A stretch of DNA of 64,000 bases from Bacteroidales bacterium. Its GTDB lineage: Bacteria > Bacteroidota > Bacteroidia > Bacteroidales > UBA932. Positions within the stretch are counted from its first letter, which is position 1. Each line of letters begins with the position of its first letter. Shown here in pieces: positions 44,347-63,046 of the stretch. Made by a program: the position numbers and the translations under genes. The stretch is taken from NCBI GenBank assembly GCA_017550525.1, contig JAFZOU010000092.1:1-64000 (forward strand), read 5' to 3'. A model generated the notes under the pieces. The model made no database searches and had not been told where the DNA came from. It saw only the letters and a list, made by a program, of their open reading frames with translations.

Positions 44347-44391
44347 CAAAATATTAGGGAAAACGGCACAACAGAGTACTCCAGGCACGGT

Positions 44392-46932
44392 CTAACGCCG
44401 TTTGGCCGACTGGTTTTTATAAATTTTTCCGTTGATTATGAACTGTTTAACTTCAATGTTTCCGCTTACAGTTTCAATAAATGGAATACCGTCTTTGAGA
44501 CCCACGGTTCCGTAACCGGTTGCGGTGGAAAGGAAGGACCGGAAGTTGTCTCCAACCTTGGAGTTGATATGGAGGGTCTTCTCTACGGCATCATATCTTG
44601 CTCCGGTAAGGGCTTCCAGAAGTGCATAACTTGAAAGGGCGCGTCCATACCATGATCCGCATTCATATTCATTGAAAGGATTGCGCAGGGTTCCGTCATA
44701 ACGGTTTCGGCAGGTGCGGACGATATCAAGCCCTTCTTCCACACATCCTTCCGCTATGAGATGAGCCGCCACCTGATATTCAATGCCGGTCCAGACCTCG
44801 TCACTGTAAACGAAGGGAAGGTTGGGTTTATCTCCATACGGCCAGGAACATAGAAGGAGTCCTCCTTCATTTCCTAGCGCATAACCCGGACGTTGAGGGT
44901 TGGAGTGGTCACGTAAGTCGTGCTTGAGATTGTATTTGTAAACGGATAGGAGATGACTTCTGACTTTTTCATGGTCAAGAGGTTCTTCAAGACCCGCGAA
45001 AGTTGTCAGGAAACATCCAAGGACGCCGTCAGAGATACATCCCTTTCCATATTGGTATTTGGGACCTTCTTCAAGGAGTATCTTCTGGGCCTCGGGGCTG
45101 TATGTGCTCTGGAAAGACTGGACTTCCATCGGCGAGGGGGCATTCAGGCCCTCCCACCTTACCTGCTGGTAGAAGTATTCTCCGTTCCACAGCTCTGTTT
45201 CCATGAATCTGACACTCTTTTCAAGGAGCTCTTCATAGAAGTTGATCTCCTTCTTCTTAAGGGCCTTGAGGTCTTTTGCCATCTTTACAAAGCAATTGAG
45301 CGCAGATGTGTATATGCTGGTACACATTCCGTCCGGCCCCCAGAACTCAATGTCGTAAGTATTGTGATGAGGCTCCTCCAGAGCACCCACATGACGTGGA
45401 TCCCAGGTACGGATACAATAATCCATACTCTGCCTGATCTGGGGAAACATATCGGCAATCCACTTATTGTCTCCGCTGATGCGCCACTCGCGGTAAGCCT
45501 TTATTATACCGCCCAGCTGGCCGTCAGAGGCAGCATGGAAGTCATGGCGCAGGGGGCGGATAGGAAGATTAGCGCGGAATGCCTGATGACCTTCCGTGTT
45601 CTGGTCAATATAATACTCTGTCTCTCTGAGGGAACGCTCCAGACGGGGGAAGAGATGGGGCACGGCCTGAGCATAGTTCCACACATGCTCACAGGAGCCG
45701 TGGCAACTGCCCCAGTTGTCTCCACTGCCTTCCCAAACCCAGTATTTGCCGTCGTGCTGACGCATGACAGTGGTGGATTTAAGTATGGTAAGATTGGCAC
45801 TTACAGCCTCAAGGACTTCCGCTGGCAGGGTACTGTCAAAGAATGTCTCCGAGAACTTCTGACTTGCATCTTTCAGCCTGTCATAGTTGGCGTCCCAGTA
45901 TTCAGTCACTTCTTCCAGATTTTTGAAACGGCGGCTGTAATAGGGCTCATAGCGCTCCGGAAGATCCTTGAAATTGTCGGGATTGTAGCAGGAGCCATAA
46001 TCCTCGGGGCAATTGGGCTCTGGGCCGATACGATGGAATGAGGTAGGGAAATACCAGGCCATACGGAGCTTGACTGTCTTGCTCTCACCGGGCTTAAGGC
46101 TAAGTGGCACATAGAGGGAACCTCCAGGGGCGCCGTCTCCTGTTCCATTGGGGACTATTTCTCCGCTTGCCGCCTTGTTCCAGGCCATTGTGAGGGGATC
46201 AAACCATCCGCCGCGGAACCAGCAGTAGTCACATTCTGTGGAATCATCGTCCGTGTAGATGGCAAAGCGCCCTTCCCACTCGGGATTCCTGGGGGTAGGA
46301 TCCTGACGCAGGACAAACCCGTTTTTCATCTCCTCAACGCAGGAAAGAGCCTCATGCGATGTAAAGACAAAGTTTCTTGTATTGAAAGAGAACACAGCCT
46401 CTACGGGCTTGCTAGAACTATTGGTGAAAGTGTACTCAAATCCCGCCACAGGGAGTCCTGATTCATCCTCATCGTTTGGAATGAAAGGATTCCAGACAGT
46501 TATTGAGACCTTAAGCGGAAGATCCTTATCCCAGAGCTCGAGAGTTGCAAAGGGGAAATGAGGGGTGAATATTCCATTGTCAAAACGCGGGAGCCCCCAG
46601 GTGGTACCACCAACTCCCATACCACCCTCCAATCGGCCGAATTTCTTATAGTCCGGGACGTTGGCCTCAAGGACTTTGGTGCCGTTCTCAAGCCCTTTCA
46701 CGCAAATGGCCGCAAAGGTGCACGGCTCATGGAAAAGCTGAGGATAATGGCGGAGCGACATGTTTGATATGGCTCCGGTTCCTTCGAAGCAAAACATTCC
46801 TGTGCCGATTCCCCCGACAGGGAAAGCGATATGATCAAGCTCATGACCGGTGTATGACCCGTTGTAATTGTGTGCCGATATCAACGATGTAGAGACACAG
46901 AGAATCAGCAGGGAGGAGAGTAGTTTCTTCAT
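44392..46932 (-). CDS. GH116 glycoside hydrolase (GBA2-like)
   Basis: 846 residues, signal peptide MKKLLSSLLILCVSTSLISA. The N-terminal beta-domain has ELDHIAFPVGGIGTGMFCFEGTGAISNMSLRHYP, typical of GH116, followed by an (alpha/alpha)6 barrel. Expected catalytic residues are Glu529 in HNTYDIEFWGPDG (nucleophile) and Asp635 in GCISDGVLGC (acid/base). GH116 is known for beta-glucosidase/beta-xylosidase activity; I also recall a beta-D-arabinofuranosidase member involved in D-arabinan degradation. Company of GH172 and DUF4185 makes the latter activity worth testing. It lies 19 bp after the CotH-like gene and is followed by the LacI gene. Confidence 0.88.
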   Translation of the reverse strand: MKKLLSSLLILCVSTSLISAHNYNGSYTGHELDHIAFPVGGIGTGMFCFEGTGAISNMSLRHYPQLFHEPCTFAAICVKGLENGTKVLEANVPDYKKFGRLEGGMGVGGTTWGLPRFDNGIFTPHFPFATLELWDKDLPLKVSITVWNPFIPNDEDESGLPVAGFEYTFTNSSSKPVEAVFSFNTRNFVFTSHEALSCVEEMKNGFVLRQDPTPRNPEWEGRFAIYTDDDSTECDYCWFRGGWFDPLTMAWNKAASGEIVPNGTGDGAPGGSLYVPLSLKPGESKTVKLRMAWYFPTSFHRIGPEPNCPEDYGSCYNPDNFKDLPERYEPYYSRRFKNLEEVTEYWDANYDRLKDASQKFSETFFDSTLPAEVLEAVSANLTILKSTTVMRQHDGKYWVWEGSGDNWGSCHGSCEHVWNYAQAVPHLFPRLERSLRETEYYIDQNTEGHQAFRANLPIRPLRHDFHAASDGQLGGIIKAYREWRISGDNKWIADMFPQIRQSMDYCIRTWDPRHVGALEEPHHNTYDIEFWGPDGMCTSIYTSALNCFVKMAKDLKALKKKEINFYEELLEKSVRFMETELWNGEYFYQQVRWEGLNAPSPMEVQSFQSTYSPEAQKILLEEGPKYQYGKGCISDGVLGCFLTTFAGLEEPLDHEKVRSHLLSVYKYNLKHDLRDHSNPQRPGYALGNEGGLLLCSWPYGDKPNLPFVYSDEVWTGIEYQVAAHLIAEGCVEEGLDIVRTCRNRYDGTLRNPFNEYECGSWYGRALSSYALLEALTGARYDAVEKTLHINSKVGDNFRSFLSTATGYGTVGLKDGIPFIETVSGNIEVKQFIINGKIYKNQSAKRR

Positions 46933-46951
46933 ATGATGCCGTTATGTTAGT

Positions 46952-48853
46952 TTACCATTTATTTATTTCCTTGTCAAGCCATCTCAGGCGTTTTGTGTAA
47001 AAGTCTTTCAAATAAGCTATTTCCCCCTCATATGAGCCTGTGACAACCACCTGTGACCAAACATTGGTTCCCAGAATATTCCACCTCTTGAAATTATTGT
47101 ATGAAACCTCATCAAGGTAGGCGACTTTTTCATCAATGAAAGCCGGTATTGTCTGCAACTGGGGCTTTAGCTCGTTCCAGCGATCCTTTACCTTTTTGCG
47201 GAAATTGGGGTCCTGGAAAAGACGGTAATACCATCCCCAGCCATACCCCTGGAAACCGTAGTCCTTTACATAAAAACCTTCCGGACCGTTTCCGCCGGGG
47301 ATGTTTCCAAAGAAGCTGCAGTTGCCCATGGAAAGGTCGAAATCCCACACATGACAGAACTCCAGTTTTCCTCCCTTCTTTTTGGAGAAGAACGTACTTT
47401 TATGGAGATTCCCGTCAAAGTTTTTGGTGAGTTCCTGAATTATATAGTTGTCCACGAAGGATTTTATGTCAATGTAAGCGGCATATCCACGGTATGGATC
47501 GGCAAAATAGTCCGACTGCAGAGCCGTTTCAAAAGCCTGGAAGAAACCCTCAACCTCCATGCGCACTTCCGTGCTGGGGGTGTCAGGGTCCTTATATGTG
47601 AGAGGTACGGACATTGATGTCCAGAAATTGTACGGCTCATCGGGATAGCACTCAAGCTCAAGATACACGTCCCCGGCGTCCGGGTTTATATTCACTTTAC
47701 TCTTGCCAACTTCCTTGTGTTCCCCAAAATCGTATACCCCCATATACAGATTATTGAAATACAGTTCTACAGGATAGAAGCTTGGAGTCCACGAAAAACC
47801 GCATATTCGGGAGAGTTCAAAGGCAACGGCATTGCGCAGAAGAGATTTGTCATTGTAATTGGCAAGGACTATCCAGTCTTTGTCAGACTTGAGGCCAAGT
47901 ACTTCTGACTTTTCATCAAGTTTGATGCGATATGGTTTTTTGGGGAAATAGGACCAGGTAGAGTTACCCCTTCCCCTGATTTTCATCCGTGATTGAAAAC
48001 AAGTTATGTCAGAGTGCTCCCTGAGCGGATCTTCCACCCTGATTGATCCGGGAATGTAATTCACCTTATCATTTACGGGCCGATTATTATCCGTAGTGAT
48101 ATAAACGGAAGGGAATTTCCCATAGCATTCCAGCGTGACGGTATAAGACACGGAAGTACCGTCAAACAGCTTAACGTCATAAACTACAGGCTGTGAAAAA
48201 TCCTGAACAGACTCTCCGCTGATCTGCAGCTCTCCATTTACCGATACACTGCTGGCGCTTATCTCAAAACGAGGGCGGAAAAGAAGATTGTCAAAGAATT
48301 GCGGCCGTGTACCCTTGATTTCCTCATTTGCAATGGTACATATAATATCCTTTGAAAGGTTTCTGTTGTCGGATGAAAGGATGGAGAAGGACTTGAAAAC
48401 CTCTTTAGGGTTGCCGCCGCGGGTTATTACAGAACCGTTGCAGAGATAGATTTTGATACAATCCTTATTATACCAGATACAGATAGGATATGATTCAGAA
48501 TCCTCCGCAGTCTCAAAATACAGGCCTGTCCTTACAAGGTTATTGAGCCATGTCCCGCTGTTTTTATCCCGGGTAATCTTAGGCTCATCGAAAATGTTTC
48601 CGTCAATGGTCTTTACTTCGTCGTAGGGGATATTTACAACTGTCCCGTCCTCGAAGAAAACAGCAAGGTAATCACCGAAGTCTTCGGCTTTCTCATACCA
48701 GAGTCCGCCTTGGACCGCGTCAATCAGTTTTGTATAATTATATGGTCTTGCAGAAGGATTGCGACCACTGTCCAATTCATCTTTCCTGACACATGATAGC
48801 GCCGCAAGAACCGATAATAAAACTGTCAGTATTTTACGAACAGTACGAAGCAT
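46952..48853 (-). CDS. CotH-type kinase domain lipoprotein with extra N-terminal domains (PUL2)
   Basis: 633 residues from the ATG at 48853; a 14-codon extension overlaps the upstream hairpin. Lipobox ALSC (Cys21). Residues about 40-260 form beta-rich modules (WYEKAEDFGDYLAVFFEDGTVVNIPYDEVK and a cadherin/Ig-like strand set). The CotH domain (about 265-633) has KIRGRGNSTWSYFPKKPYRIKLDEKSEVLG, DWIVLANYNDKSLLRNAVAFELS, SFVDNYIIQELTKNFDGN and FCHVWDFDLSMGNCSF, so the metal-binding aspartates are kept. Its C-terminal half is clearly homologous to the PUL1 CotH gene. Each PUL in this window thus carries one exported kinase-like protein. Substrate unknown. Confidence 0.82.
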   Translation of the reverse strand: MLRTVRKILTVLLSVLAALSCVRKDELDSGRNPSARPYNYTKLIDAVQGGLWYEKAEDFGDYLAVFFEDGTVVNIPYDEVKTIDGNIFDEPKITRDKNSGTWLNNLVRTGLYFETAEDSESYPICIWYNKDCIKIYLCNGSVITRGGNPKEVFKSFSILSSDNRNLSKDIICTIANEEIKGTRPQFFDNLLFRPRFEISASSVSVNGELQISGESVQDFSQPVVYDVKLFDGTSVSYTVTLECYGKFPSVYITTDNNRPVNDKVNYIPGSIRVEDPLREHSDITCFQSRMKIRGRGNSTWSYFPKKPYRIKLDEKSEVLGLKSDKDWIVLANYNDKSLLRNAVAFELSRICGFSWTPSFYPVELYFNNLYMGVYDFGEHKEVGKSKVNINPDAGDVYLELECYPDEPYNFWTSMSVPLTYKDPDTPSTEVRMEVEGFFQAFETALQSDYFADPYRGYAAYIDIKSFVDNYIIQELTKNFDGNLHKSTFFSKKKGGKLEFCHVWDFDLSMGNCSFFGNIPGGNGPEGFYVKDYGFQGYGWGWYYRLFQDPNFRKKVKDRWNELKPQLQTIPAFIDEKVAYLDEVSYNNFKRWNILGTNVWSQVVVTGSYEGEIAYLKDFYTKRLRWLDKEINKW

Positions 48854-48864
48854 AAATATAAAAA

Positions 48865-48896
48865 GTTGCGCAGACGCGCGTATGCGCCTGCGCAAC
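48865..48896 (-). terminator. Intercistronic hairpin (terminator or attenuator) before the CotH-like gene
   Basis: GTTGCGCAG (48865-48873) pairs with CTGCGCAAC (48888-48896), and on the minus strand it is followed by TTTTTATA. It lies between the DUF4185 fusion gene stop and the next ATG, 11 bp before it, so it should reduce read-through into the CotH-GH116 part. Confidence 0.65.
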
Positions 48897-48910
48897 TTTC
48901 CTGATAGTTT

Positions 48911-51208
48911 CTAGAGGATTGAGCCCACAAAGATTACAGACCCATCTTCTTCAACCTTAAGTACCGAGATGCTTCCGAGAACACCGGTATCTTCATCCTT
49001 GGTGAGGAGTTTGGCGCCGGACCAGTTCCACTTACCATCGGCATCGGGACCCTTGGAATCACGATAAACGATTCCCTCAGCGGCATCGGCACGATAGAAC
49101 AGCTGGTATACCTCAAACTTGGGATTCCAGATAAGGTCATAGGTTCCGCGGTCTCCCATAAGGAGATGCTGGTTGAACCTGATTGCCCATTCTCCACCAC
49201 CGTCTGTCCAGCCGGGGTTCTTGAAATAGTCATAGGCATCGGGGTCTGTGACATCCTTGCCATCTGCAACGCGGGCGGCATAAGATTTACCCCACAGCCA
49301 GTTGTCACGTCCTGCATGTGAACCAATCATATAGGTATAACCATCACGGTTTACGAATGCAGCGCTGGAGAATTTTCCGTCATTATTGGCTGCCCAGGCA
49401 CTTGCTGCCCAGGTTTTAGCAGCAGCTTCCCAGGTTTTGCCATTGTCTTCGGAAACTACGAAGCCCGATTTGTCAGTTTTCCAGTTGAGCGTGAAGTTGG
49501 GATCGAAATCAGTCATACCGTAATAGTGCATGTATGTCTTTCCATCCATGACAAAGACGTCATCAGGGACTACGGCTATTTCACCTTCCTCTACAGGGAG
49601 GATCTCAGAAATGGCACCTTCGCTCTTGTAGAACTTGCTGATTTGGATTGATGCGGGATCCGTAGACTCTGTCTCTGCCACTGCGGTAGGAACAAGGGCT
49701 CCGTTTATCACAACGTCAGAGAAGGCGAGTTTGACCTTATTGTCAGTATCCATCCAGGCCACAATCTTGCCAAGGCCGTCAACCTGATCATAGGTTGCAT
49801 TGGTAATTGATCCAAGGATTGTTGCTTCCTTGGGAGCAGTTGAGATGCCGCGGATGTCAAGCTCCTTGGGATAAACCACCACATTGTCATATTCTGACCA
49901 GCAGGGAAGGGCGTTGGGATCTCCCCACATGCCAAGGTGTACGAAGCCCCATGCCTGGGTAGGATAGTTGGTATCATCAAATACGTAGTGATGCCACTGT
50001 TCATCGTTGAAGAACCATCTGCCGTTCTCTACAACATCTTCAGGTGAAGGAGCCTTTGCGCCTCCGGTAACTTCCCTGTACCAGCAACCTAAATCGTCAT
50101 TGAAGGAGAATCCGGAATAGAAATCTTTATTGCTGTCTTTTGATACACGGGCGTCGAATTCAATAACCCACCAGCCAGCGCCAACCTCCGTAGTTTCCCT
50201 ATAGACTACGGCCTGCTGAAGGTTTGTCATACCATCCGGGCTGGTCCTTTCCATACGGAGAGCCTTCGGGGAATTATATCCATCGATTATGGATTCATTG
50301 TGATTGAGATTTTCCCATTTCCATCCGTCTCTGGGGTAATCCTCAAATCCACCATCTCCGATAAGGTTGAAGTCGGCGGTCTCGAAAGAAGCCTTCATGA
50401 TGACAGCACCAACAACGTTTGTAGGATTGGGGTTGACGGGCTCGACCCAGTTAAATGAGCTGAATGTACCGAGGTCTGTAATGGCACCGCTCTTAAGCTC
50501 GGCACCGGAAACCTTTACATCGGCATGATAGTCATCCGCAGCAGTTAAGGAAACAGTATAACTGGAAACGTTTCCAGGTAATACGGCAGCATAATTAACG
50601 CCCTTGATGTCGGTGCCGGTAATTGTGACCTTATTTGCACCTTCACCCACTTTCTCGCATTTGGGAGTGGCGGCAAGTTCAAGGTTGCAGGTACCGGTAA
50701 GGGACTCGTTACCGTCGGCAAAGATAGTTACAGAAACGATTTTCTTATCTGCAGCAATGTTCATCTTCAGAATTGCCGGCATAAAGGAGAATTTCAGTTC
50801 TTCCGTTGCAGAAGCGGCATATGCAACCTGGAAGTTGGCGTTAGCTGCAATCTTTCCGGCGTCAGGACTCTGGGCGGAAGGAATTGTTACGGACACTTTA
50901 CCGGATGTGCGCTTGTATTCTGCGTTGTAAGGATAAAGAGCCGCGTATGCCTCTGCTTTTGCATTGGCCGTTCCCTTGATAGCTGTGGCGGAAGTTGCCG
51001 TGAACTTCTGATTGGCCTTACCATCAAAGATGGAGATGGACTCACCTGCGCTGAAGCCCAGATCCAGGCCATCAATTGATGCAGCCTTCACATTGAAGGT
51101 AATCTCCTGATAGTCCGGCGTGGCAGGAGTATTGTCGTTTGCCGGCTTTTGACAAGAGACCAGCGGGATGGCGATCGCCGCAAGGATGAAAAGTGTTCTT
51201 GTTTTCAT
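48911..51208 (-). CDS. Fimbrillin-like lipoprotein fused to a DUF4185 (GH183-type) domain
   Basis: 765 residues, lipobox LVSC (Cys19). Order: fimbrillin-like module (about 25-260, FSAGESISIFDGKANQKFTAT, YAALYPYNAEYKR), a jelly-roll-like carbohydrate-binding region (about 265-435, FNLIGDGGFEDYPRDGW, VIEFDARVSK), and a beta-propeller C-terminus (about 440-765) with DUF4185 features: VSEDNGKTW, FSSAAFVNRDGYTYMIGSHAGR, DPDAYDYFKNPGW. As I recall, DUF4185 proteins include endo-D-arabinanases, classed as GH183. This would be a surface-anchored endo-enzyme or binding protein. First gene of the PUL2 minus-strand arm, divergent from SusC. Confidence 0.75.
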   Translation of the reverse strand: MKTRTLFILAAIAIPLVSCQKPANDNTPATPDYQEITFNVKAASIDGLDLGFSAGESISIFDGKANQKFTATSATAIKGTANAKAEAYAALYPYNAEYKRTSGKVSVTIPSAQSPDAGKIAANANFQVAYAASATEELKFSFMPAILKMNIAADKKIVSVTIFADGNESLTGTCNLELAATPKCEKVGEGANKVTITGTDIKGVNYAAVLPGNVSSYTVSLTAADDYHADVKVSGAELKSGAITDLGTFSSFNWVEPVNPNPTNVVGAVIMKASFETADFNLIGDGGFEDYPRDGWKWENLNHNESIIDGYNSPKALRMERTSPDGMTNLQQAVVYRETTEVGAGWWVIEFDARVSKDSNKDFYSGFSFNDDLGCWYREVTGGAKAPSPEDVVENGRWFFNDEQWHHYVFDDTNYPTQAWGFVHLGMWGDPNALPCWSEYDNVVVYPKELDIRGISTAPKEATILGSITNATYDQVDGLGKIVAWMDTDNKVKLAFSDVVINGALVPTAVAETESTDPASIQISKFYKSEGAISEILPVEEGEIAVVPDDVFVMDGKTYMHYYGMTDFDPNFTLNWKTDKSGFVVSEDNGKTWEAAAKTWAASAWAANNDGKFSSAAFVNRDGYTYMIGSHAGRDNWLWGKSYAARVADGKDVTDPDAYDYFKNPGWTDGGGEWAIRFNQHLLMGDRGTYDLIWNPKFEVYQLFYRADAAEGIVYRDSKGPDADGKWNWSGAKLLTKDEDTGVLGSISVLKVEEDGSVIFVGSIL

Positions 51209-51287
51209 TTTTGTTAGTGTTAGAAATAATGAGTATTTGATTGATTTTCTTGTTTCAGTAGCACGTTAACAGTATTCCAATTTTCCA

Positions 51288-51333
51288 CAAAGATATAGAA
51301 TCAAAATCAGATTGCAAAATCATTTTAGCAAAA
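51288..51333 (-). promoter_or_regulatory. Promoter of the PUL2 minus arm with TGCTAAA motif
   Basis: Complement: TATCTTTG (51288-51295) and TTTG (51315-51318) spaced by 19 bp, a full Bacteroidota promoter. TTTTGCTAAAA (complement of 51323-51333) directly overlaps its upstream edge and lies in an imperfect inverted repeat (GCAAAATC-ATTTTAGC, 51314-51329). The remaining 51,334-51,465 is AT-rich without a gene. Confidence 0.6.
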
Positions 51334-51465
51334 CTTATATGCACATTATTTATTTTTTCTGACAAATTGCGGTTTCCAAAGCTTTAAAAAACGCCTCCAA
51401 GAATCCTTTAAACGATGGGTTTTTATTGTTTTTCGATATAAAAACTAATAAATAAAAATTATTTC

Positions 51466-51497
51466 TTTGCTTTTGCTAAAACGTTTATATATCTTTG
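51466..51497 (+). promoter_or_regulatory. Promoter of PUL2 susC with candidate LacI operator
   Basis: TTTG (51466-51469) and TATCTTTG (51490-51497) are 20 bp apart. The spacer contains TGCTAAAACGTTTATA (51474-51489) whose core AAACGTTT is a perfect CG-centred palindrome, the classic form of LacI-family operators. Confidence 0.65.
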
Positions 51498-51537
51498 TTG
51501 AAATTCTTATCGGCATGAATTACAAACATTTGTTAGT

Positions 51538-54500
51538 ATGAAAAGATTTAAGACGATTACATCAGTACTGTTGACTTTTGCCTGCTGTCTGTCGCTCGTC
51601 GCCCAGAACTCCAGCAGAAAAACGGTAACGGTCACAGGACATGTCTATGACGCCGTAAGCAAGGAACCGCTTGAAGGTGTGGCGGTTATGCAGAAGGCCA
51701 CCAACATCGGAACCATAACCGACGCCTTCGGTTATTTCGTCCTTGGTGTGAACAACGAGGAATGTGAGTTAGTCACATCTTCTATCGGCTTCAAGGAGCA
51801 GGTGATCAAGGTCTCCAAGCGCAAAGTCATAGACATCTTTCTTGAAGAGGATACCGCTTCCCTTGAAGACGCTGTAGTAATCGGCTATGGAACGCAGAAG
51901 AAGGCTACAATCACCGGAGCCCTTACCACGGTGGACGCAAAAGAGCTCAGACATCAGGCAACGCCCAATCTTTCCAACGCCCTGGGCGGCGTTGTCCCAG
52001 GACTAGTCTCCCGCCAGACAAGCGGAGAACCCGGATATGACGGCGCCACGCTTCTTATCCGCGGTCTTGGAACCTGGCTTTCCGCCTCGCCCCTTGTTCT
52101 TGTAGATGGTGTCCAGCGAGACATCAATCTTGTGGATGCAAGCGACATTGAATCTTTCTCCGTCCTCAAGGACGCCTCTGCAACGGCTGTATATGGTATG
52201 CGCGGTGCTAACGGCGTTATCCTTATCAACACAAGGAAAGGAAGCATGGGTAAGCCCAAGATCACACTTAGGCTTGAGGCTACAAACCTTCACGGACTCA
52301 GATTTGACAATTTCATCAATGCCGGAGATTTTGCCACCCTCATGAACGAGGCCTGCGCCACGGACGGCAACATCATTCCGTGGTCAGACGAAGAAATAGA
52401 GTCTTTCCGTGACGGCTCAGACCCTTACATGTATCCAAACAACGACTGGACCAATATGATTCTGAAAAAGAATGCGTTCCAGACCATGAACAATCTCTCA
52501 GTCTCCGGAGGTAATGAAGTGGTAAGATACTATGTAAACTTTGGTTTCTCCTCCCAGGACGGTCTGCTCAAGGAAGACCCTCAATACAACTACAGGACAA
52601 ACTCCCTTTCCCAGCGATACTTCTTCCGCTCCAACGTAGACATCAACGTAACAAGGGACATCTCCCTTGCCCTGGGCCTGTCCCAGATAATGGAGCACAG
52701 GATTTATCCCGGAACCCCGGCCGGAGACATCTTCAATTCACTTAAGATTACTTCCCCCCTTGCATATCCCGTTGTAAACCCGGACGGATCACTGGGAGGA
52801 CGTGCCACCTCATATGAGCAGAGATCTCCCTGGAGCCTTGCCACCAACAACGGTTATGCCGATCAATTCCGTGTCACCACCCAGGCAAACGCCAGCCTCA
52901 ACTGGGATCTCAGCAGGCTCATAACTTCCGGCCTGTCCCTGAATGCAAACCTGTCATTTGACTACTATAATTATAATGAGGCCTTCCGCCGCAAGGTCCC
53001 GGACACCAAACAGTTCCTGGGATATGACACTGTCACCGGAGAAGGGAAATACAATATCATCTTTGAGGAGCAGCCCATGTCCTTCAGCTTCTCCCAGGTT
53101 TCAAACAGGGCTATCTACTACGACGTAAGGCTTAATTACAACAGGACATTCAACAAGCATTCCGTAGGAGCGCTTGCCATGTTCAACCGCCGTGATTACG
53201 TGGATCTTACCGCCGGCAATTCCACCGCCCGTCTCCCTTACCGCCGCCAGGGATTCGCAGGACGTCTCAACTATTCATACGACATGAGATACCTGATAGA
53301 GTTCAACTGCGGATACAATGGTTCAGAGAACTTCGCAAAGGGCCTGCGTTACGGTTTCTTCCCGGCCATCTCTGCCGGTTGGGTGCCCTCCAGAGAAAAA
53401 TTCTGGGGCGCCAACAACCCGGTGAACCACCTGAAGATCAGAGGTTCCTACGGTCTTGTGGGCAATGACGCCAACTCCGCAGAGCGCTTCTACTACATGT
53501 CAACGGTCAACATGCACGCCAACCCGTATCTCCTCGGCAACAGCCAGACACCAACCGGAGGAACGGCAGAGCTTTCAATGGGTTCTCCCAAAGCCACATG
53601 GGAGGTTTCCCGCAAGGCCGATGTTGGATTCGACCTTGAAATGTTCAAGGGCAAGCTCAAATTAAGCGCCGACTACTTCTATGAGTATCGTGACAATATC
53701 CTCATCAAGAGAGCCCAGATCCCAAATATCCTTGGTGCACAGTGGGGCGATACCCCGTGGGCTAATATCGGCATTATGGAAAACCGCGGATTCGATGCCA
53801 ACATCGAGTTCTCAAACACCACCGCCGGCGGTTTCTATTACAACCTGCGCGCCAATATGACCTTCGCCCGCAACAAGGTCATTGAGGACGACACAGCATA
53901 CCATACCTGGTCTTATCAGGACACCCGCGGGCGCTCTACCGGCATGATTTACGGTCTTACCGCCATCGGCCTTTTCCAAACCCAGGAAGAAGTTGACAAT
54001 GCCCCAAAGCAGGAACTTGACGACAGCTACGGCGTAGGTGATATCAGGTATGCCGATCTAAACGGCGACAACGTCATCAATGCATATGACTACAGCTTTA
54101 TCGGCCTTGGACGTATTCCTGAAATCATGTACGGATTTGGCATGACGTTCGCCTACAAGGGTTTTGACCTTACCCTCAACTTTACGGGCGCCGGCAACAC
54201 CAACATCCTGCTTGATAGCACGGGAATGTGGCCGTTCTCCCTTGCCTATCCTTCATACAATATCTACCACGAGTATTTTGACAACCGCTTCATTCCCGGA
54301 GCCGACAACACCAATGCGAAGTACCCGGTGGCGCACTCCAACAAGAGCACCAACAACTTTACGGTCAACACCCTGTACATGCGCGACGCATCATACCTGA
54401 AGCTCAAGACCGCCGAATTAGGCTACAATTTCAGCAAGAAGGTCTGCAGCAAGATCCGCGCTGAGAGCCTGCGTATTTTCATTAATGGAAATAACATCTT

Positions 54501-54606
54501 CTGCATTGACAAAATCAAAATCATAGATCCCGAATTCGGTCATTTAGGCGTAGCCGCCTACCCCACACAGAGAGCACTGACCGTCGGGGTGCAGCTTGGA
54601 TTCTAA
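51538..54606 (+). CDS. SusC/RagA-family TonB-dependent transporter (PUL2)
   Basis: 1,022 residues, signal peptide MKRFKTITSVLLTFACCLSLVAQ. Carboxypeptidase-regulatory-like domain (about 28-110, VTGHVYDAVSKEPLEGVAVM), TonB-box-like LEDAVVIGYGTQKK, plug with FSVLKDASATAVYGMRGANGVILINTRKG, and a barrel ending RALTVGVQLGF. It imports the oligosaccharides of PUL2. SusD follows after 18 bp. This gene, with the divergent DUF4185 fusion, contains hardly any of the GGCCGAT motif that is common elsewhere in the window. Confidence 0.97.
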   Translation: MKRFKTITSVLLTFACCLSLVAQNSSRKTVTVTGHVYDAVSKEPLEGVAVMQKATNIGTITDAFGYFVLGVNNEECELVTSSIGFKEQVIKVSKRKVIDIFLEEDTASLEDAVVIGYGTQKKATITGALTTVDAKELRHQATPNLSNALGGVVPGLVSRQTSGEPGYDGATLLIRGLGTWLSASPLVLVDGVQRDINLVDASDIESFSVLKDASATAVYGMRGANGVILINTRKGSMGKPKITLRLEATNLHGLRFDNFINAGDFATLMNEACATDGNIIPWSDEEIESFRDGSDPYMYPNNDWTNMILKKNAFQTMNNLSVSGGNEVVRYYVNFGFSSQDGLLKEDPQYNYRTNSLSQRYFFRSNVDINVTRDISLALGLSQIMEHRIYPGTPAGDIFNSLKITSPLAYPVVNPDGSLGGRATSYEQRSPWSLATNNGYADQFRVTTQANASLNWDLSRLITSGLSLNANLSFDYYNYNEAFRRKVPDTKQFLGYDTVTGEGKYNIIFEEQPMSFSFSQVSNRAIYYDVRLNYNRTFNKHSVGALAMFNRRDYVDLTAGNSTARLPYRRQGFAGRLNYSYDMRYLIEFNCGYNGSENFAKGLRYGFFPAISAGWVPSREKFWGANNPVNHLKIRGSYGLVGNDANSAERFYYMSTVNMHANPYLLGNSQTPTGGTAELSMGSPKATWEVSRKADVGFDLEMFKGKLKLSADYFYEYRDNILIKRAQIPNILGAQWGDTPWANIGIMENRGFDANIEFSNTTAGGFYYNLRANMTFARNKVIEDDTAYHTWSYQDTRGRSTGMIYGLTAIGLFQTQEEVDNAPKQELDDSYGVGDIRYADLNGDNVINAYDYSFIGLGRIPEIMYGFGMTFAYKGFDLTLNFTGAGNTNILLDSTGMWPFSLAYPSYNIYHEYFDNRFIPGADNTNAKYPVAHSNKSTNNFTVNTLYMRDASYLKLKTAELGYNFSKKVCSKIRAESLRIFINGNNIFCIDKIKIIDPEFGHLGVAAYPTQRALTVGVQLGF

Positions 54607-54624
54607 TCTTTAAAACAGAGTATC

Positions 54625-56550
54625 ATGCGTAAAATATATATCCTTTCTGCAATAGTGATGGCAACGTTGGCAACGTGTGCCTGCGAAGATTTTCTTGACA
54701 AGAGCCCGGAAGAGAACCTTACGGTTGACGACATATTCTCCAACAGGGAATACACCAAGGACTTCCTCTCCCATGTCTATTCCTGGATTCCCACAGAGGC
54801 CAATATGGCCGATGACGGTGGTGCTTGGAGAGATCCCTTTGTGGCCGGATGCGATGAGATGGAATGCGCATTCGGCGGTGCATATGGCCACAACATCAAC
54901 AGCGGTGCCTGGAACCCCACCACAATTTCTAAGACCCAGGTCTGGGAAGAGTCCTACATGGCCCTCCGCAAGACCAACATGTTCCTGGAAAGAGTTGATG
55001 GTTCCCCCGCTTCAGAGGAGGAGATACGCCACTGGAAAGGCGAAGCTTATTTCCTGAGGGCATATTTCCATTTCCTTGCATTCAGGACCCACGGTCCCAT
55101 CATCCTTGCCGACCACTGCTATGACCCTTCCGAAGACCTTCTCAGCATCAGGCGGTCTTCTGTAGATGCCTGTGTGGATTTTATGATCCAGGACTGCAAG
55201 AGGGCAATAGAACTCCTATATGATGTCCGTGGAACTCAGGGTCAGATAGACAAATGGGTGGATTCCGACACCGGCCGTGCAACCAGACTTTCCGCCTACG
55301 GCCTTATGTCCCGTATCCTTCTCTATGCCGCCTCTCCACTTTACAATGGTAACGCCCAGCAGGCCAGCCTGGTGGACCCTGTCACCGGAGAGAATCTCAT
55401 CAGCCAAACCTATGATCCGGAGAAATGGAAACTTGCGGCCGATGCCGCCAGGGACTGCATTACGGCTTGTAAGGATGCCGGACGGTCACTGTTCAACAGG
55501 TATCCCACGAATCCCGTCAAGAACTACCAGAGCATCTTCACGGAATGCTGGAACGAGGAAATCCTGTGGGCAAAGAATATCGGCACATACGATCACTGGC
55601 TCAACTGCGCAGACCCCATTTCCTTCAATTGCTACTCTATTCTCAATCCTACCCAGAACCAGGTAGACGCCTATGAGACCGCTGAGGGTGTCAACCCCAT
55701 CACAGGCTACACCAAGGAAACCATAATGATAAATGGCAGCAATGTTGAGGTCCTCATGCCCATTATCAACCCCGAAGCCATCTATACTGAAACCGGATTT
55801 GCAGCTGCGGCCGATAATTCCGGCATGGACCGCTGGCCCGCTGGCGTGAGCAACATGTATGTGAATCGTGAACCCAGATTCTATGCTTCCATCAATTTCA
55901 ACGGTGCAAAATGGAAGTGGAATGCTCCCAACTACAATACCAACGACCCTCACTATCTGGAATTCTGGTACACTGGCGTGGACGGAAAGAATAATGCCGG
56001 CTCCGACTATTGCAAAACCGGATACCTCATGAAGAAACTGGTATCCCCGGACCGCATTCCCTGGAAGTATACTCCCCTCCTTCAGTGGGTTTACATCCGT
56101 CTTGGAGAAATCTATCTCAACCTGGCAGAAGCCGTCAATGAGTACAGCGGCCCCACCCAGGAGTGCTACGACGCCATCAATGCCATCCGTAACCGTGCCG
56201 GCCTTCCCAATCTTCCCACGGGCCTCTCAAAGGAGGAAATGCGTGACAGGATCAAGCACGAGCGCCGTATTGAGCTGGCCTTCGAGACACATCGATTCTT
56301 TGATGTCCGCCGCTGGCTTGATGCCGAGACATCGGAACGCCAACCCGTTTACTCCATGAATATCTACGCCGGCACCAATCTGCAGGATCCTGATTTCTAT
56401 AAGAGAATAAAAATTGAGGACCGCGTATTTGAGGCGCCCAAGCATTATTTCTTCCCCATAAGCCAGACTGAAATCAACAAGAACCAGAAAGGATATCTGG
56501 TCCAGAATCTGGGCTGGATAACTCAGAAAACGGAAGAAAATGAAGAGTAA
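54625..56550 (+). CDS. SusD/RagB-family glycan-binding lipoprotein (PUL2)
   Basis: 641 residues, lipobox TCAC (Cys20) followed by EDFLDKSPEENLTVDDIFSN, a typical SusD start. GEAYFLRAYFHFLAFRTHGPIIL is the TPR segment; the C-terminus has RLGEIYLNLAEAVNEYSGPTQECYDAINAIRNRAGLPNLP and RDRIKHERRIELAFETHRFFDVRRW. It is longer than the PUL1 SusD (543) and has inserted loops, suggesting a larger or different ligand. It is the surface lid of the SusC just upstream, and its transcript ends at a strong terminator. Confidence 0.97.
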   Translation: MRKIYILSAIVMATLATCACEDFLDKSPEENLTVDDIFSNREYTKDFLSHVYSWIPTEANMADDGGAWRDPFVAGCDEMECAFGGAYGHNINSGAWNPTTISKTQVWEESYMALRKTNMFLERVDGSPASEEEIRHWKGEAYFLRAYFHFLAFRTHGPIILADHCYDPSEDLLSIRRSSVDACVDFMIQDCKRAIELLYDVRGTQGQIDKWVDSDTGRATRLSAYGLMSRILLYAASPLYNGNAQQASLVDPVTGENLISQTYDPEKWKLAADAARDCITACKDAGRSLFNRYPTNPVKNYQSIFTECWNEEILWAKNIGTYDHWLNCADPISFNCYSILNPTQNQVDAYETAEGVNPITGYTKETIMINGSNVEVLMPIINPEAIYTETGFAAAADNSGMDRWPAGVSNMYVNREPRFYASINFNGAKWKWNAPNYNTNDPHYLEFWYTGVDGKNNAGSDYCKTGYLMKKLVSPDRIPWKYTPLLQWVYIRLGEIYLNLAEAVNEYSGPTQECYDAINAIRNRAGLPNLPTGLSKEEMRDRIKHERRIELAFETHRFFDVRRWLDAETSERQPVYSMNIYAGTNLQDPDFYKRIKIEDRVFEAPKHYFFPISQTEINKNQKGYLVQNLGWITQKTEENEE

Positions 56551-56555
56551 TGATT

Positions 56556-56581
56556 AAAGGGCCGTGAATCCACGGCCCTTT
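56556..56581. terminator. Bidirectional terminator between susD and the convergent GH172 gene
   Basis: AAAGGGCCGTG and CACGGCCCTTT form a perfect 11-bp stem with loop AATC, followed by T's on plus and preceded by A's. It serves both converging genes. Confidence 0.88.
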
Positions 56582-56584
56582 TTT

Positions 56585-58711: not shown

Positions 58712-58714
58712 AGA

Positions 58715-58739
58715 CTTAATACGATTTAGCACAAATATA
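58715..58739 (-). promoter_or_regulatory. Promoter of GH172 with TGCTAAA motif
   Basis: The complement of 58732-58739 is TATATTTG, the -7 box. Directly downstream, around the expected start site, the minus strand reads CTAAATCGTATTAAG (58729-58715), an imperfect palindrome resembling the other PUL2 sites. An AT inverted repeat, TAATTAAT-n5-ATTAATTA, lies at 58751-58771 between the two divergent promoters. Confidence 0.5.
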
Positions 58740-58772
58740 GTGTATTATTTTAATTAATCCCCAATTAATTAT

Positions 58773-58780
58773 TATCTTTG
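58773..58780 (+). promoter_or_regulatory. -7 promoter box of GH43 (TATCTTTG)
   Basis: TATCTTTG lies 30 bp before the GH43 ATG. Confidence 0.55.
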
Positions 58781-58810
58781 AAAGCATAAGGGATTTTATA
58801 TAGTCAAAAG

Positions 58811-59902
58811 ATGAAAAGATTTATTACCTTGGCCCTGTTTCTCAGCGCCGCCTTTGCTTTATGCCCGTTCTCATGCGCCAGTCAGGATAATGGCAGGGAA
58901 GCCCCCGCACAAACCCCACAGGAAGAGGGAGAAGAACCGAAAGAAGAACAGAAAGAGGAGCCAATTGAGAAATACCATAATCCCGTAATTTCTTTCGATT
59001 GGCCAGACCCAACCATATGGTATGACGGCAACCGTTTCTATACGGTTTCTACCGGCATCGGTTCCATTTTCGCCAGTAAAGACATGGTTCACTGGTACAA
59101 GATGAATTCTACTCCCCTGAGCATTGCGGCAAGGAATGAGGCCCGTACGCACGGGTCAAATTTCTGGGCTCCGGATGTTGTGAAAGTAGGTTCTAAATGG
59201 ATGCTTTATCTCACCTGCTACAATTCTGCCGACAACTGCGGGATTGCCGCTTTTTCATCAGACTCCGCTTCCGGCCCCTTTGAATGGGAAGGGATTATTA
59301 CGCATAGTACAGATACCGGAATACAGGATACCATAGACCCTGAAGTGGTGTATGACCCGGAAAGCTCAAAGCTTTGGCTGTTTTTTGGCAGCATCGGCAG
59401 TATCCACCGCGTTTTACTCTCTCAGGACGGATGCCGTGTAGCTTCCGGCGCAGAATATATAAAGGTTGCCGGGCTCACATACAGCCAGGACAAATCCCGC
59501 GAAAAAGTATTCGAGGGCTCTTACCTCTACCGTCACGGCAATTACTGGTATCTGTTTGTCAGTTCCGGCAATTATGGGAACTCTTCGTACAGGATCAAGG
59601 TTGGGCGCAGCACTTCTCTTGAAGGCGAGTTTCTAAGTAAAGACGGGAAAAAGATGCTTGACGGATTTGCCACAGAAATCCTGACAAGCCAGAGCGGCGA
59701 CAATTATTACGGCCCCGGGCACAACGGAGAGATATTCACGGACCAGAGAGGCCAGGAGTACATGTTTTACCATTGCCACGACGCTTCCAGCGGCACCAAA
59801 GCCCGCTATACCTTCCTGCAGCGGATATTCTGGGATAAGGACGGCTGGCCTTATTTCGATGGAGGCAAGCCTGTTGGAGAAGATTATATGCCAAAATTCT
59901 AG
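58811..59902 (+). CDS. GH43-type glycoside hydrolase lipoprotein
   Basis: 363 residues, lipobox FSC (Cys22), then an acidic linker rich in Glu, Pro and Lys (about 27-53). Five-bladed propeller with the GH43 triad: Asp66 in WPDPTIW (base), Asp176 in TIDPEV (pKa modulator) and Glu235 in VFEGSYLY (acid). FWAPDVVKVGSKWMLYLT is the blade-2 signature. GH43 enzymes are inverting and remove arabinofuranosyl, xylosyl or galactosyl units. A long charged linker suggests display at a membrane surface. GH2 follows 19 bp downstream in the same operon. Confidence 0.9.
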   Translation: MKRFITLALFLSAAFALCPFSCASQDNGREAPAQTPQEEGEEPKEEQKEEPIEKYHNPVISFDWPDPTIWYDGNRFYTVSTGIGSIFASKDMVHWYKMNSTPLSIAARNEARTHGSNFWAPDVVKVGSKWMLYLTCYNSADNCGIAAFSSDSASGPFEWEGIITHSTDTGIQDTIDPEVVYDPESSKLWLFFGSIGSIHRVLLSQDGCRVASGAEYIKVAGLTYSQDKSREKVFEGSYLYRHGNYWYLFVSSGNYGNSSYRIKVGRSTSLEGEFLSKDGKKMLDGFATEILTSQSGDNYYGPGHNGEIFTDQRGQEYMFYHCHDASSGTKARYTFLQRIFWDKDGWPYFDGGKPVGEDYMPKF

Positions 59903-59921
59903 AGCAATATAAAAGACAGAT

Positions 59922-61766
59922 ATGAAACAGATTTCAACCATTTTGGCCACCCTTGCCATACTGCTTATGGGCACTGGCGCAAAGGCACTCCCCAGGGCGG
60001 AATATCCCCGTCCTCAATTTGAGCGCACAAGCTGGATCAACCTCAACGGTGAATGGGATTATTCAATAGACCCCGCTTCTACCGGATGGGACCGGGGACT
60101 GGCCGCCGGAAATTTTTCGGACGGAAAGATACTGGTTCCCTTTGCTCCGGAAAGCAAACTATCCGGTGTGGAGTATAAGGAATTCATCCCCAGCATCTGG
60201 TACAGGAAGGAAATATCAATTCCTGCCAATTGGGCCGGCCAGGACATAGTCCTTAACTTCGGGGCCGTGTATTACTGCTCGGAGGTTTACATTGACGGGC
60301 GATTTGTCTCAAGGCATTTTGGCGGCTCCGACTCCTTTGGCGTAGATATCACGCGCTTCGTTACCCCAGGTAACACCCATACTCTTGTCGTCAACGCCAC
60401 CAGCGACCTTCGCTCCAAACGTCAGACGGCCGGAAAGCAGTCTCTCCGTGCCGATAACTTCGAGTGCATGTACACACGCACAACCGGAATATGGCAAACG
60501 GTGTGGATGGAAGCCGTGGCTCATCAGGGCCTTGACCGTGTAAAGACCACCACGGACATAGACCGCTCTGCGGTGAGTTTCCAGACCTGGTTCCGGAACC
60601 CATCGGCCACAACCCTTAATATAATGGTATATGCCGATGGCAAACTGGTGGCCAGACAAAGCGGAGCCGCTGCTGACGGATCCATTTTCACCCTCCCCAT
60701 AAAGAAGGCCCGGCTTTGGAGCCCCTCCAGCCCCTTCCTCTACGACGTAGTATTTGAAGTGGTTGATGCCAACGGACAGGTGGTTGACAAGGTGAAATCC
60801 TATTTCGGCATGAGGAAGATACATATTGAGGGAAATCGCATTTTCCTCAATAACGAGCCCTTCTACCAGCGCCTTGTCCTGGATCAGGGATTCTATCCCG
60901 ACGGAATATGGACGGCGCCCTCCGACGAAGCACTCCGTCACGACATAGAAATGTCCATGGAAGTGGGATTCAACGGCGCCCGCCTGCACCAGAAAGTGTT
61001 TGAGGAGCGTTTTCACTATTGGGCCGATAAACTAGGATATATAACCTGGGGAGAGTGCCCCAGCTGGGGACTTGACTGCAACGACCCAATTGCCGCCCGA
61101 AACTATCTCAGCGAATGGACAAACGTGGTCTCACGTGACATGAACCATCCCTCAATCGTTACCTGGACCCCTTTCAACGAAGAGTTCTGGCCCGACAACG
61201 TCCAGTATCCCAGATTCATTGCCGATGTATACGACATAACCAAGAGCATTGACCCCACCCGTCCCATAAACACCGTCAGCGGCGGAGTCATAATAAAGAC
61301 CGACATCTGGGCCGTACACCACTATGAGCAGGATCCCGCCCGGCTCAAGGAGATAATATGGAATGACGGCAAGATGTTCCTCTACAACGGAGAACGCCAG
61401 CTTCTTTACCGCGGAAATGTAGGTTACAACCGTCCGGAACTGGATACTCCTTCCAATTTCCCGGAATATGACGGCAGCGCCCCTTACATTGTGGACGAAT
61501 TCGGCGGCATACGCTGTATGGAAGTGAATCCTCCGGAAGACGGCGCATGGGGATACGGTTCAGCTCCACAGACAAAGGAAGAGTTCTATGCCCGCCTTGA
61601 AGGCCAGGTCCGTGCCCTGATAGAACTCAGCGACAGCGTATGGGGTTTTTGCTATACACAGCTTACCGATGTCCAGCAGGAGCAGAACGGCATCTACTAC
61701 TTCGACCGAAGAGTCAAATATGATTCTTCGCGCCTGAAAGAGATTTTTGGGATGCCTTTACCCTGA
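59922..61766 (+). CDS. Secreted GH2-family glycoside hydrolase
   Basis: 614 residues, signal peptide about 1-22 (MKQISTILATLAILLMGTGAKA). GH2 layout: jelly roll (about 30-200), Ig-like domain (205-300), TIM barrel (300-614), with no extra C-terminal domains. Acid/base Glu420 in TPFNEEFW and nucleophile Glu526 in VDEFGG. The short form and the YTRTTGIWQTVWME segment are like a group of Bacteroidota GH2 enzymes whose specificity varies (galactosidase, glucuronidase, arabinosidase-like). It shares the GH43 operon. Confidence 0.88.
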   Translation: MKQISTILATLAILLMGTGAKALPRAEYPRPQFERTSWINLNGEWDYSIDPASTGWDRGLAAGNFSDGKILVPFAPESKLSGVEYKEFIPSIWYRKEISIPANWAGQDIVLNFGAVYYCSEVYIDGRFVSRHFGGSDSFGVDITRFVTPGNTHTLVVNATSDLRSKRQTAGKQSLRADNFECMYTRTTGIWQTVWMEAVAHQGLDRVKTTTDIDRSAVSFQTWFRNPSATTLNIMVYADGKLVARQSGAAADGSIFTLPIKKARLWSPSSPFLYDVVFEVVDANGQVVDKVKSYFGMRKIHIEGNRIFLNNEPFYQRLVLDQGFYPDGIWTAPSDEALRHDIEMSMEVGFNGARLHQKVFEERFHYWADKLGYITWGECPSWGLDCNDPIAARNYLSEWTNVVSRDMNHPSIVTWTPFNEEFWPDNVQYPRFIADVYDITKSIDPTRPINTVSGGVIIKTDIWAVHHYEQDPARLKEIIWNDGKMFLYNGERQLLYRGNVGYNRPELDTPSNFPEYDGSAPYIVDEFGGIRCMEVNPPEDGAWGYGSAPQTKEEFYARLEGQVRALIELSDSVWGFCYTQLTDVQQEQNGIYYFDRRVKYDSSRLKEIFGMPLP

Positions 61767-61802
61767 TTTATACCATCTTTTGTCAATTTTTAATCACCGC
61801 TC

Positions 61803-61833
61803 TTGCAAATGCTAAATCAATTTAGTAATTTTG
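61803..61833 (+). promoter_or_regulatory. Promoter of second GH172 with CTAAAT-CA-ATTTAG operator-like palindrome
   Basis: TTG (61803-61805) and TAATTTTG (61826-61833) are 20 bp apart. CTAAAT (61812-61817) and ATTTAG (61820-61825), a perfect inverted repeat, fill the spacer, the same position as the candidate operator in the susC promoter. Confidence 0.6.
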
Positions 61834-61885
61834 CACGTCGGGTTTTTCCATGTTGCCAATCATTTGATAAATAATAAATGGCAAT

Positions 61886-63046
61886 ATGAAAAAAGGTATT
61901 ATTCTCTCTGCGTTAACCGTGTTTTTAGCGGTTACTGTTTCTTATGCCCAGAAGTTCAACGGACTTGACATGAACATGGGTAACCTCTCCAGGCTTTCAG
62001 ACGCAAAATCCCGCTCTATCTCCCCGGAAAATTTCACCGGTGAAAAGGGAAAGGGCGGAATGGCCGATGTAGCCCTTCCCAACACACGGAACGTCAATAA
62101 CGCATCCTGGGCCGCCCGTGACCTTGGCAAAGGCTGGAAGGTCAATCCATACATCAGGATCGCCTCCGGAGAAACCGTCACCATAGCGGAAATAGAGGGT
62201 CCCGGTGCCATCCAGCACATCTGGATGACTCCTACAGGTGTCTGGCGCTGGACCATTATCCGCATCTATTGGGACGACGAAACCACTCCTTCTGTGGAAT
62301 GCCCCATAGCGGACTTCTTCTGCATGGGCTGGAACGAGTATGCCCCTCTGGTATCACTGCCAGTGTGCGTTAATCCCGGCAGCGCCTTCAACTGCTACTG
62401 GCAGATGCCTTTCCGCAAGAAGTGCAAGATTACCATGGAGAACGTCAATGACCGCGACGAAATGACCCTCTATTATCAGATAGACTACACTCTCACGGAG
62501 GTCCCGGAAGACGCCGGTTATTTCCACGCCCAGTTCAGAAGGACCCCCTATAACGAGACTTCGGATTTCACCATCATAGACGGAATCAAGGGCAAGGGCC
62601 AGTATGTGGGCGTCTATCTTGCCTGGGGCCTGCACAACAACGGCTGGTGGGGAGAAGGAGAGATCAAGTTCTTCATCGACGACGACAAACAGTTCCCCAC
62701 CATTTGCAGCACCGGCACGGAAGACTATTTCTGCGGCTCATATAACTTTGACCGTAATGGCCGATTCATTGAGTTCTGCACCCCTTACGCCGGACTATGC
62801 CAGGTCATACGCCCGGACGGCACATACCGCTCCCAGGAGCGCTTCGGCCTGTACCGCTGGCATATAATGGACCCTATCCGCTTTGAGAAAAACCTGAAGG
62901 TAACCATCCAGGACCTTGGCTGGAGGCACGATGGCCGATACCTGGCCCAGCACTCCGACATATCGGCCACAGTGTTCTGGTACCAGGCCGAGCCTCACGG
63001 TAAATTCCCCGCCTTCCCTTCATGGCAGGAACTGGAAGTGAACTAG
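61886..63046 (+). CDS. Secreted GH172 (DUF2961) glycoside hydrolase
   Basis: 386 residues, signal peptide MKKGIILSALTVFLAVTVSYAQ. Single GH172 domain, the common size of the family. The double jelly roll carries IEGPGAIQHIWMT at 103-115 and GWWGEGEIKFFIDDDKQFPTICSTGTEDYF with catalytic Glu257 and Glu279. It differs strongly from the longer GH172 gene at 56,585, so the two probably have different linkage preference. It has its own promoter; the next gene begins 2 bp after the stop. Furanoside activity is expected for the family. Confidence 0.93.
   Translation: MKKGIILSALTVFLAVTVSYAQKFNGLDMNMGNLSRLSDAKSRSISPENFTGEKGKGGMADVALPNTRNVNNASWAARDLGKGWKVNPYIRIASGETVTIAEIEGPGAIQHIWMTPTGVWRWTIIRIYWDDETTPSVECPIADFFCMGWNEYAPLVSLPVCVNPGSAFNCYWQMPFRKKCKITMENVNDRDEMTLYYQIDYTLTEVPEDAGYFHAQFRRTPYNETSDFTIIDGIKGKGQYVGVYLAWGLHNNGWWGEGEIKFFIDDDKQFPTICSTGTEDYFCGSYNFDRNGRFIEFCTPYAGLCQVIRPDGTYRSQERFGLYRWHIMDPIRFEKNLKVTIQDLGWRHDGRYLAQHSDISATVFWYQAEPHGKFPAFPSWQELEVN

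Follow-up and report, generated by a model that had tools for sequence, protein, structure and literature searches.

The systems closest to the locus examined here come from Dysgonomonas gadei, Microbacterium arabinogalactanolyticum and Bacteroides oleiciplenus. PUL42 of D. gadei, a polysaccharide utilization locus (PUL) with D-arabinan as its substrate, carries three GH172 and two DUF4185/GH183 genes (PMC10115798) along with a GH116 gene (PMC10509167), and its fucose isomerase is highly produced on D-arabinan (PMC10115798). The M. arabinogalactanolyticum cluster encodes the enzymes EndoMA1, ExoMA1 and ExoMA2 in a Gram-positive host with an ABC importer rather than SusCD, and its isomerase and kinase are named in general terms (PMC10509167). 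We analyzed a stretch of 64,000 nucleotides (the window) from the Bacteroidales bacterium assembly GCA_017550525.1, namely positions 1 to 64000 of contig JAFZOU010000092.1 (C106, 81752 bases; genome 2.38 Mb, 91% complete), together with the rest of that contig. By our count it holds a locus of 22 genes (Table 1) that very likely serves D-arabinan utilization. This locus resembles PUL42 and encodes relatives of the three Microbacterium enzymes, but has a PfkB-family kinase and a SIS-domain protein instead of the fucose isomerase of D. gadei. With B. oleiciplenus YIT 12058 (L020, L117) it shares LacI, FucP, DUF6786, GH172, GH97, GH183 and SusCD genes, whereas that strain has FucI and an FGGY kinase rather than PfkB and SIS. 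We propose that the PfkB-SIS pair phosphorylates D-arabinose before isomerizing it, and judge such kinase-first catabolism to be probable. In the sections consulted, the two papers from 2023 that a search for D-arabinan loci brought up (PMC10115798, PMC10509167) describe no kinase-first locus; their figures or supplements could hold one.

A sequence-only reading of the window had proposed a PUL for D-arabinan or a related furanan between positions 44392 and 63046. A Pfam scan across that span placed every gene on its list (two GH172, a DUF4185 fusion, GH116, GH43, GH2 and SusCD) where it had been drawn; a CotH-domain gene and a LacI-type regulator gene were absent from the list. The GH97 and esterase genes that it had counted in are present but lie outside the proposed bounds, which captured the core of the locus and were too short: it spans 40146 to contig position 77388. 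Its part past position 64000, all on the + strand, adds two full GH183 genes, another SusCD pair and the catabolic genes. We compared the enzymes with solved (PDB) sequences, a set in which D. gadei is represented by chain 8ah3 only. The GH116 protein matched the exo-beta-D-arabinofuranosidase ExoMA2 (8ic6) with an E value of 2e-115, and solved beta-glucosidases at 2e-7 or worse. Its catalytic nucleophile and acid/base are conserved, as are the two residues said to set ExoMA2 apart from glucosidases (PMC10509167). These four, E401, D527, H416 and R453, are equivalent to E431, D557, H446 and R483 of ExoMA2, the set that marks GH116 subfamily 4; from the residues, we infer that the numbering of the ExoMA2 chain runs 4 ahead of that in the paper. 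The short GH172 protein matched ExoMA1 (8ic8) with 375 bits (E 3e-111), compared with 156 bits for a difructose enzyme and 124 bits for 8ah3, which carries the locus number of DgGH172c. Its Asn287 corresponds to ExoMA1 Asn253, which is reported to exclude fructose (PMC10509167), and the Glu residues around this position are also kept. The long GH172 protein has one DUF2961 domain in Pfam and weak, about equal matches to four solved GH172 sequences; DgGH172b of D. gadei is described with 1.5 domains (PMC10115798).

The two full GH183 proteins, GH183a and GH183b, scored 299 and 286 bits against DUF4185 and matched EndoMA1 with E values of 4e-57 and 2e-43. The essential EndoMA1 residues D33 and D51 are kept in GH183a according to the alignment and E243 by eye, and the triad of GH183b is complete by eye. 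Within the order, 393 genomes were sampled, and four of them, including that of the window, had DUF4185 scores above 280 bits. The fusion protein inside the window, which the sequence-only reading took to be of GH183 type, does contain a DUF4185 domain, but the domain scored only 92 bits, and the three essential positions read G, D, T in a remote, low-identity and thus uncertain alignment. The same positions are G, D, T in the homologue from L018 (75% identical) and D, N, E in that from L115 (31%). As none of the three homologues has the full triad in this remote alignment, the fusion protein probably binds rather than cuts; we rejected it as an endo-enzyme on the incomplete triad and on the lack of any PDB match at E values up to 1, and did not file it as GH183. 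The D-arabinan reading itself gains support from the best matches and specificity residues of the GH116 and short GH172 proteins and from the full GH183 genes past the window. By sequence, the first two fell beside ExoMA2 and ExoMA1, the opposite of the placement with fructan- or glucoside-active enzymes that would have spoken against it.

The GH2 protein had 7xyr, deposited as a beta-glucuronidase, as its best PDB match (E 1e-185), followed by the beta-D-galactofuranosidase 9j6n (8e-83). A GH2 survey assigns 7xyr to GH2_19, within a group III (GH2_18, GH2_19) that acts on furanosides (PMC12243196), and on this basis we rejected the deposited name as a guide to function. The protein from the window keeps, by eye, an NE pair that 7xyr lacks. 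Furanosides are more probable substrates for it than pyranosides, and this fits an arabinogalactan target without proving it.

The PfkB kinase gene and the gene for a SIS protein of 200 residues lie between SusD-B and DUF6786. The SIS protein most resembles the arabinose-5-phosphate isomerases KpsF, GutQ and KdsD, with scores under the cut-offs of the models, and is 34% identical to Escherichia coli KdsD over 193 positions. All five locus SIS proteins keep K59, H88, E111, E152 and H193 of KdsD, residues that we presume to have functional roles. Unlike KdsD, the protein has no C-terminal CBS pair and consists of the SIS domain only, as do some solved relatives of 198-220 residues. When 295 genomes of the order were searched, the matches listed, besides the window's own, were 32-43% identical and were mostly frames of about 320-350 residues. 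A role as the KdsD of 3-deoxy-D-manno-octulosonate (Kdo) synthesis is unlikely, because KdsA did not exceed the cut-off in any of the seven genomes with the pair. Nor did KdsA exceed it in the genus mates G008 and G368, or in G399 and G230, two genomes without the pair. We rejected this role since KdsA over the cut-off was missing in the three genus members searched and G008 had no SIS match. The kinase scored 287.6 bits against the ribokinase model TIGR02152 (cut-off 299.65). We did not retain it as the ordinary ribokinase of its genome either, since a second ribokinase-like gene sits elsewhere in that genome; such a gene (37-40% identical) occurs in all seven genomes with the pair. A tree set the locus kinases apart, at 100/100 support, from six ribokinases encoded elsewhere in these genomes. 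Locus kinases from five of the seven genomes were aligned, leaving out those of L013 and L014 (>99% identical to the window) and the L114 copy (in-frame stop). The second ribokinases came from six of the seven, without G394, that of G398 having an internal stop and being taken as its longest frame; the tree omits RK_G008, a LacI-like frame.

Alignment with E. coli ribokinase (RbsK) revealed a change at a position where an engineered substitution affects activity on D-arabinose. In simulations, Ala98 of the E. coli enzyme faces the 2-hydroxyl of arabinose, and the engineered A98G substitution raised the kcat for D-arabinose 15-fold (PMC9604405). All five locus kinases have Gly at position 98. 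Of 22 other ribokinase-family proteins, 21 have Ala here, one has Ser and none has Gly; these comprise E. coli RbsK, six proteins from the same genomes and 15 plasmid-borne proteins hand-picked for diversity among 50 matches listed, two of which (Bradyrhizobium and Rhizobium K1/93) are without E143 and perhaps not genuine ribokinases. The locus kinases share Gly98, the ribokinase family and the catalytic residues with the A98G enzyme, and differ in that their change is natural and accompanied by the loss of Asn14, replaced by Ile or Met in all five. Asn14 has been linked to ribose binding, and of 16 colonies obtained on 2-deoxyribose, 15 had N14D or N14S (PMC6452873). D16, G41-K43, N46, I100, I110, E143 and D255 are unchanged in the locus kinases. 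In our reading, a natural Ala98-to-Gly ribokinase has probably taken on the role of a D-arabinose 5-kinase and, together with a catabolic arabinose-5-phosphate isomerase, displaced fucose isomerase and D-ribulokinase in D-arabinan loci.

A GH183a search of genome contigs returned 10 related loci in 9 genomes, which were Bacteroidales metagenome-assembled genomes (MAGs), an uncultured Bacteroides and B. oleiciplenus; several MAGs are titled goat rumen, omasum or abomasum or carry the label RUG, which we take to mean rumen. L013-L015 have the window gene order over the part that they hold, except that GH183b is missing in L014 and L015, where SusC-B directly follows GH183a (L014:10001-11676, L015:8031-9738); L016, L017 and L019 retain most of it. 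PfkB and SIS occur in L013-L017, and a SIS fragment lies at a contig end in L018. The two genes are adjacent in all seven genomes holding a locus-type SIS. In L016 and L017, the pair stands beside LacI and GH172 genes rather than after SusD, still within the locus. L019, with a GH183a 71% identical to that of the window genome, has FucI between SusD and DUF6786, the slot of PfkB-SIS in the window genome, followed by FucP, DUF4185, GH116 and GH97, and by an FGGY kinase gene on the other strand whose frame contains one TAG. The arabinan loci of B. oleiciplenus and G230 also carry FucI, FGGY and FucP. A fucose isomerase (PF07881) was found neither in the window genome nor in the other six with the pair, compared with five of six genomes without it (Fisher p 0.0047), and an FGGY D-ribulokinase-like protein (E <1e-100) in none of the seven compared with four of the six (p 0.021), the 13 genomes not being independent. 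FucI lies within the arabinan locus itself in three of those five (G230, G399, G400); G337 has FucI pieces on contigs other than its GH183 contig, and the FucI of G401 was not seen in L021, the stretch holding its GH183. LacI homologues adjoin GH172 or GH183 in L016, L017, L019, L022 and L086 and adjoin FucI in L082 and L117. SIS sequences occur at three places in the goat rumen MAG G398. PfkB accompanies two of them, with a stop codon in one of these kinase frames, and the third is a fragment at a contig end. Of the three places, L114 and L018 lie beside arabinan genes, the L114 copy following FucP and a CotH gene (L114:16248-18185) that directly precedes the pair. B. oleiciplenus has what looks like a duplication, a second arabinan segment (L117:13783-19915) that holds a further GH172, another SusC and a shorter version of the FGGY kinase (98% identical).

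Several observations weigh against kinase-first catabolism. The KM of the E. coli A98G enzyme for D-arabinose is still 310 mM (PMC9604405), so a good arabinose kinase takes more than Gly98, and other changes must contribute. Asn14 is also lost in four of the 22 other family members, and the best PDB match of the kinase, the solved ribokinase chain 8cqx, has Gly at position 98 where the near-identical 6znx has Ala. The seven genomes are related MAGs, and their counts are not independent because three of them (the window genome, L013 and L014) are 97-100% identical in most locus proteins. The absence of FucI could reflect an incomplete assembly, the window genome being 91% complete and the other six of unstated completeness. 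Strong GH183 genes occur in G337 and G060 without either catabolic module in the stretches examined, and around the copy of the pair in L113 (12.6 kb contig) of G398 tblastn found no further arabinan genes. The pair could work within the ordinary isomerase-first route, with an unseen isomerase forming D-ribulose, PfkB acting as a D-ribulose kinase and the SIS protein only interconverting pentose phosphates. The Citrobacter rodentium Rbl system for D-ribulose gives this some precedent, having a sugar kinase, there a D-ribulokinase, beside a KpsF-like isomerase (RblI) that may play such an interconverting part, but differs from our locus in its FGGY kinase, its D-ribulose transporter and the dispensability of its isomerase (PMC12307932). 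The search that failed to find FucI in the seven genomes with the pair was limited to that enzyme; L-rhamnose and L-arabinose isomerases, possible D-arabinose enzymes, were not searched for. We nevertheless consider this route improbable, given the absence of FucI and a conserved change at position 98 that points to the 2-hydroxyl of arabinose, D-ribulose having no stereocentre at C2. Less probable still is that the pair serves D-ribose, 2-deoxyribose or Kdo synthesis and merely travels with the locus. The kinase does score near the ribokinase cut-off, Met14 is common to two plasmid kinases adjoining aldose epimerase genes (one also adjoining deoC), and the L113 copy stands apart from arabinan genes; against these, each of the seven genomes has another ribokinase-like gene and none has KdsA over the cut-off, and the pair occupies the FucI slot and is kept after rearrangement.

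Other alternatives concern the polymer. Most characterized GH116 enzymes are glucosidases (PMC10509167), and the first GH43 has endo-1,5-L-arabinanases as its nearest solved relatives (E 8e-29), so that plant L-arabinan, fructan or beta-glucosides could be the target through GH172 and GH116. We hold this to be very improbable in view of the best matches and specificity residues of the GH116 and short GH172 proteins, the two full GH183 genes, and the absence of GH51 among the locus genes scanned by Pfam. More probable than this, though still less likely than not, is that the enzymes and pathway are as proposed and that the natural polymer is not mycobacterial but an O-antigen, pilin or exopolysaccharide that bears D-arabinofuranose and is made by gut bacteria. 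D-arabinofuranose glycans are noted outside Mycobacteriales (PMC10115798), and the gut compartments named for the related MAGs are in line with such a source; the GH2_19-like and GH43 enzymes point, weakly, to a partner chain containing galactofuranose as in arabinogalactan.

From the observed gene content, order, similarity, residues and distribution, we infer the activities, substrates and cellular locations in the following scheme, and regard a 22-gene D-arabinan locus of rumen-type Bacteroidales with kinase-first catabolism as a likely explanation overall. GH183a and GH183b would cut D-arabinan outside the cell, and SusCD pairs A and B would import the pieces. GH172 and GH116 would then take alpha- and beta-D-arabinofuranose off the fragment ends, while GH2 and GH43 would probably release neighbouring furanosides, for example galactofuranose. 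D-arabinose may enter the cytoplasm through the FucP-type symporter; there the PfkB kinase would phosphorylate it at O5 to arabinose-5-phosphate and the KdsD-like SIS protein would convert this to ribulose-5-phosphate, which enters the pentose phosphate pathway. This order would be the reverse of the usual route, where an FGGY kinase follows fucose isomerase.

A SusC/SusD pair is a general mark of PULs in Bacteroidota, and the present locus has two (A and B). Its left operon, whose genes are 0-28 bases apart, extends from 51208 to 40146 and comprises the genes for the DUF4185 fusion, CotH protein, GH116, LacI, GH97 and esterase; SusC-A starts 329 bases from it on the opposite strand. The genes from SusC-B to GH43b form one run with gaps of ≤17 bases in the window genome, and after the locus rpoA and rpsD lie on the opposite strand. 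The CBM48-esterase is the least certain member, because no homologue was found in the stretches of relatives searched.

Table 1. Genes of the predicted D-arabinan locus (window positions equal contig positions for genes past the window end)
Feature	Position	Strand	Basis
CBM48-esterase, last gene of left operon	40146-41306	-	Pfam; 28 bp gap to GH97
GH97	41335-43302	-	Pfam; homologues in arabinan loci L020, L022/L114, L115
LacI-type regulator	43303-44388	-	Pfam
GH116, predicted exo-beta-D-arabinofuranosidase	44392-46932	-	Pfam, ExoMA2 match, kept residues
CotH-domain protein	46952-48895	-	Pfam; homologues in arabinan loci L018 (77%), L114 (46%)
Fusion protein, divergent DUF4185 domain in last third	48911-51208	-	Pfam 92 bits
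SusC-like transporter A	51538-54606	+	Pfam
SusD-like protein A	54625-56550	+	Pfam
Long GH172 (DUF2961), 715 residues	56585-58732	-	Pfam
GH43	58811-59902	+	Pfam
GH2, predicted furanosidase (GH2_19-like)	59922-61766	+	Pfam, PDB matches
Short GH172 (DUF2961), predicted exo-alpha-D-arabinofuranosidase	61886-63046	+	Pfam, ExoMA1 match, kept residues
Conserved protein of arabinan loci, 354 residues	63049-64113, cut by window end at 64000	+	Homologues 45-76% identical in four other loci; no Pfam match
GH183a	64110-65552	+	DUF4185, EndoMA1 match
GH183b	65549-66973	+	DUF4185, EndoMA1 match
SusC-B	67202-70303	+	
SusD-B	70321-72177	+	
PfkB kinase (start taken at MNKKPK; listed TTG start further upstream)	72191-73171	+	
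SIS isomerase, 200 residues	73171-73773	+	
DUF6786	73786-75000	+	
FucP-type symporter	75007-76440	+	FucP family, after DUF6786
Second GH43 (GH43b)	76444-77388	+	

The window also contains a neighbouring locus, PUL1 (12957-37317), with a NAGLU (GH89-type) gene, two GH127-like genes, a distant GH116/GH78-like protein, SusCD and two SusE-like genes. CotH-domain proteins turn up repeatedly in such loci, PUL1 having its own at 16895-18253. Outside the window, the genome has another two DUF2961 (GH172) genes (G000:C47:20424-24204) near a PfkB-like gene (C47:16761-17552). The 354-residue protein without a Pfam match (L009:150-1214) and DUF6786 (L009:10887-12101) accompany either catabolic module in D-arabinan loci; each is a candidate for a new function related to arabinan or arabinose.

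D-arabinokinase (EC 2.7.1.54) and arabinose-5-phosphate isomerase activities were reportedly described in Propionibacterium in the 1960s, a kinase-first order like the one proposed here. We know of no gene for this D-arabinokinase, and in the open-licence part of PubMed Central neither the Propionibacterium activity could be confirmed nor a gene for the kinase found. If our reading is true, the locus would supply a gene for this old activity, propose genes for a kinase-first route and describe a pathway freed from the enzymes of L-fucose. It would show in nature a single-residue specificity marker known first from laboratory engineering, and residue 98 may help to annotate arabinose kinases and ribokinases apart. 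More broadly, the digestion of mycobacterial-type D-arabinan would be extended to rumen-type Bacteroidales, with a full set of candidate enzymes for dissecting arabinogalactan and lipoarabinomannan.

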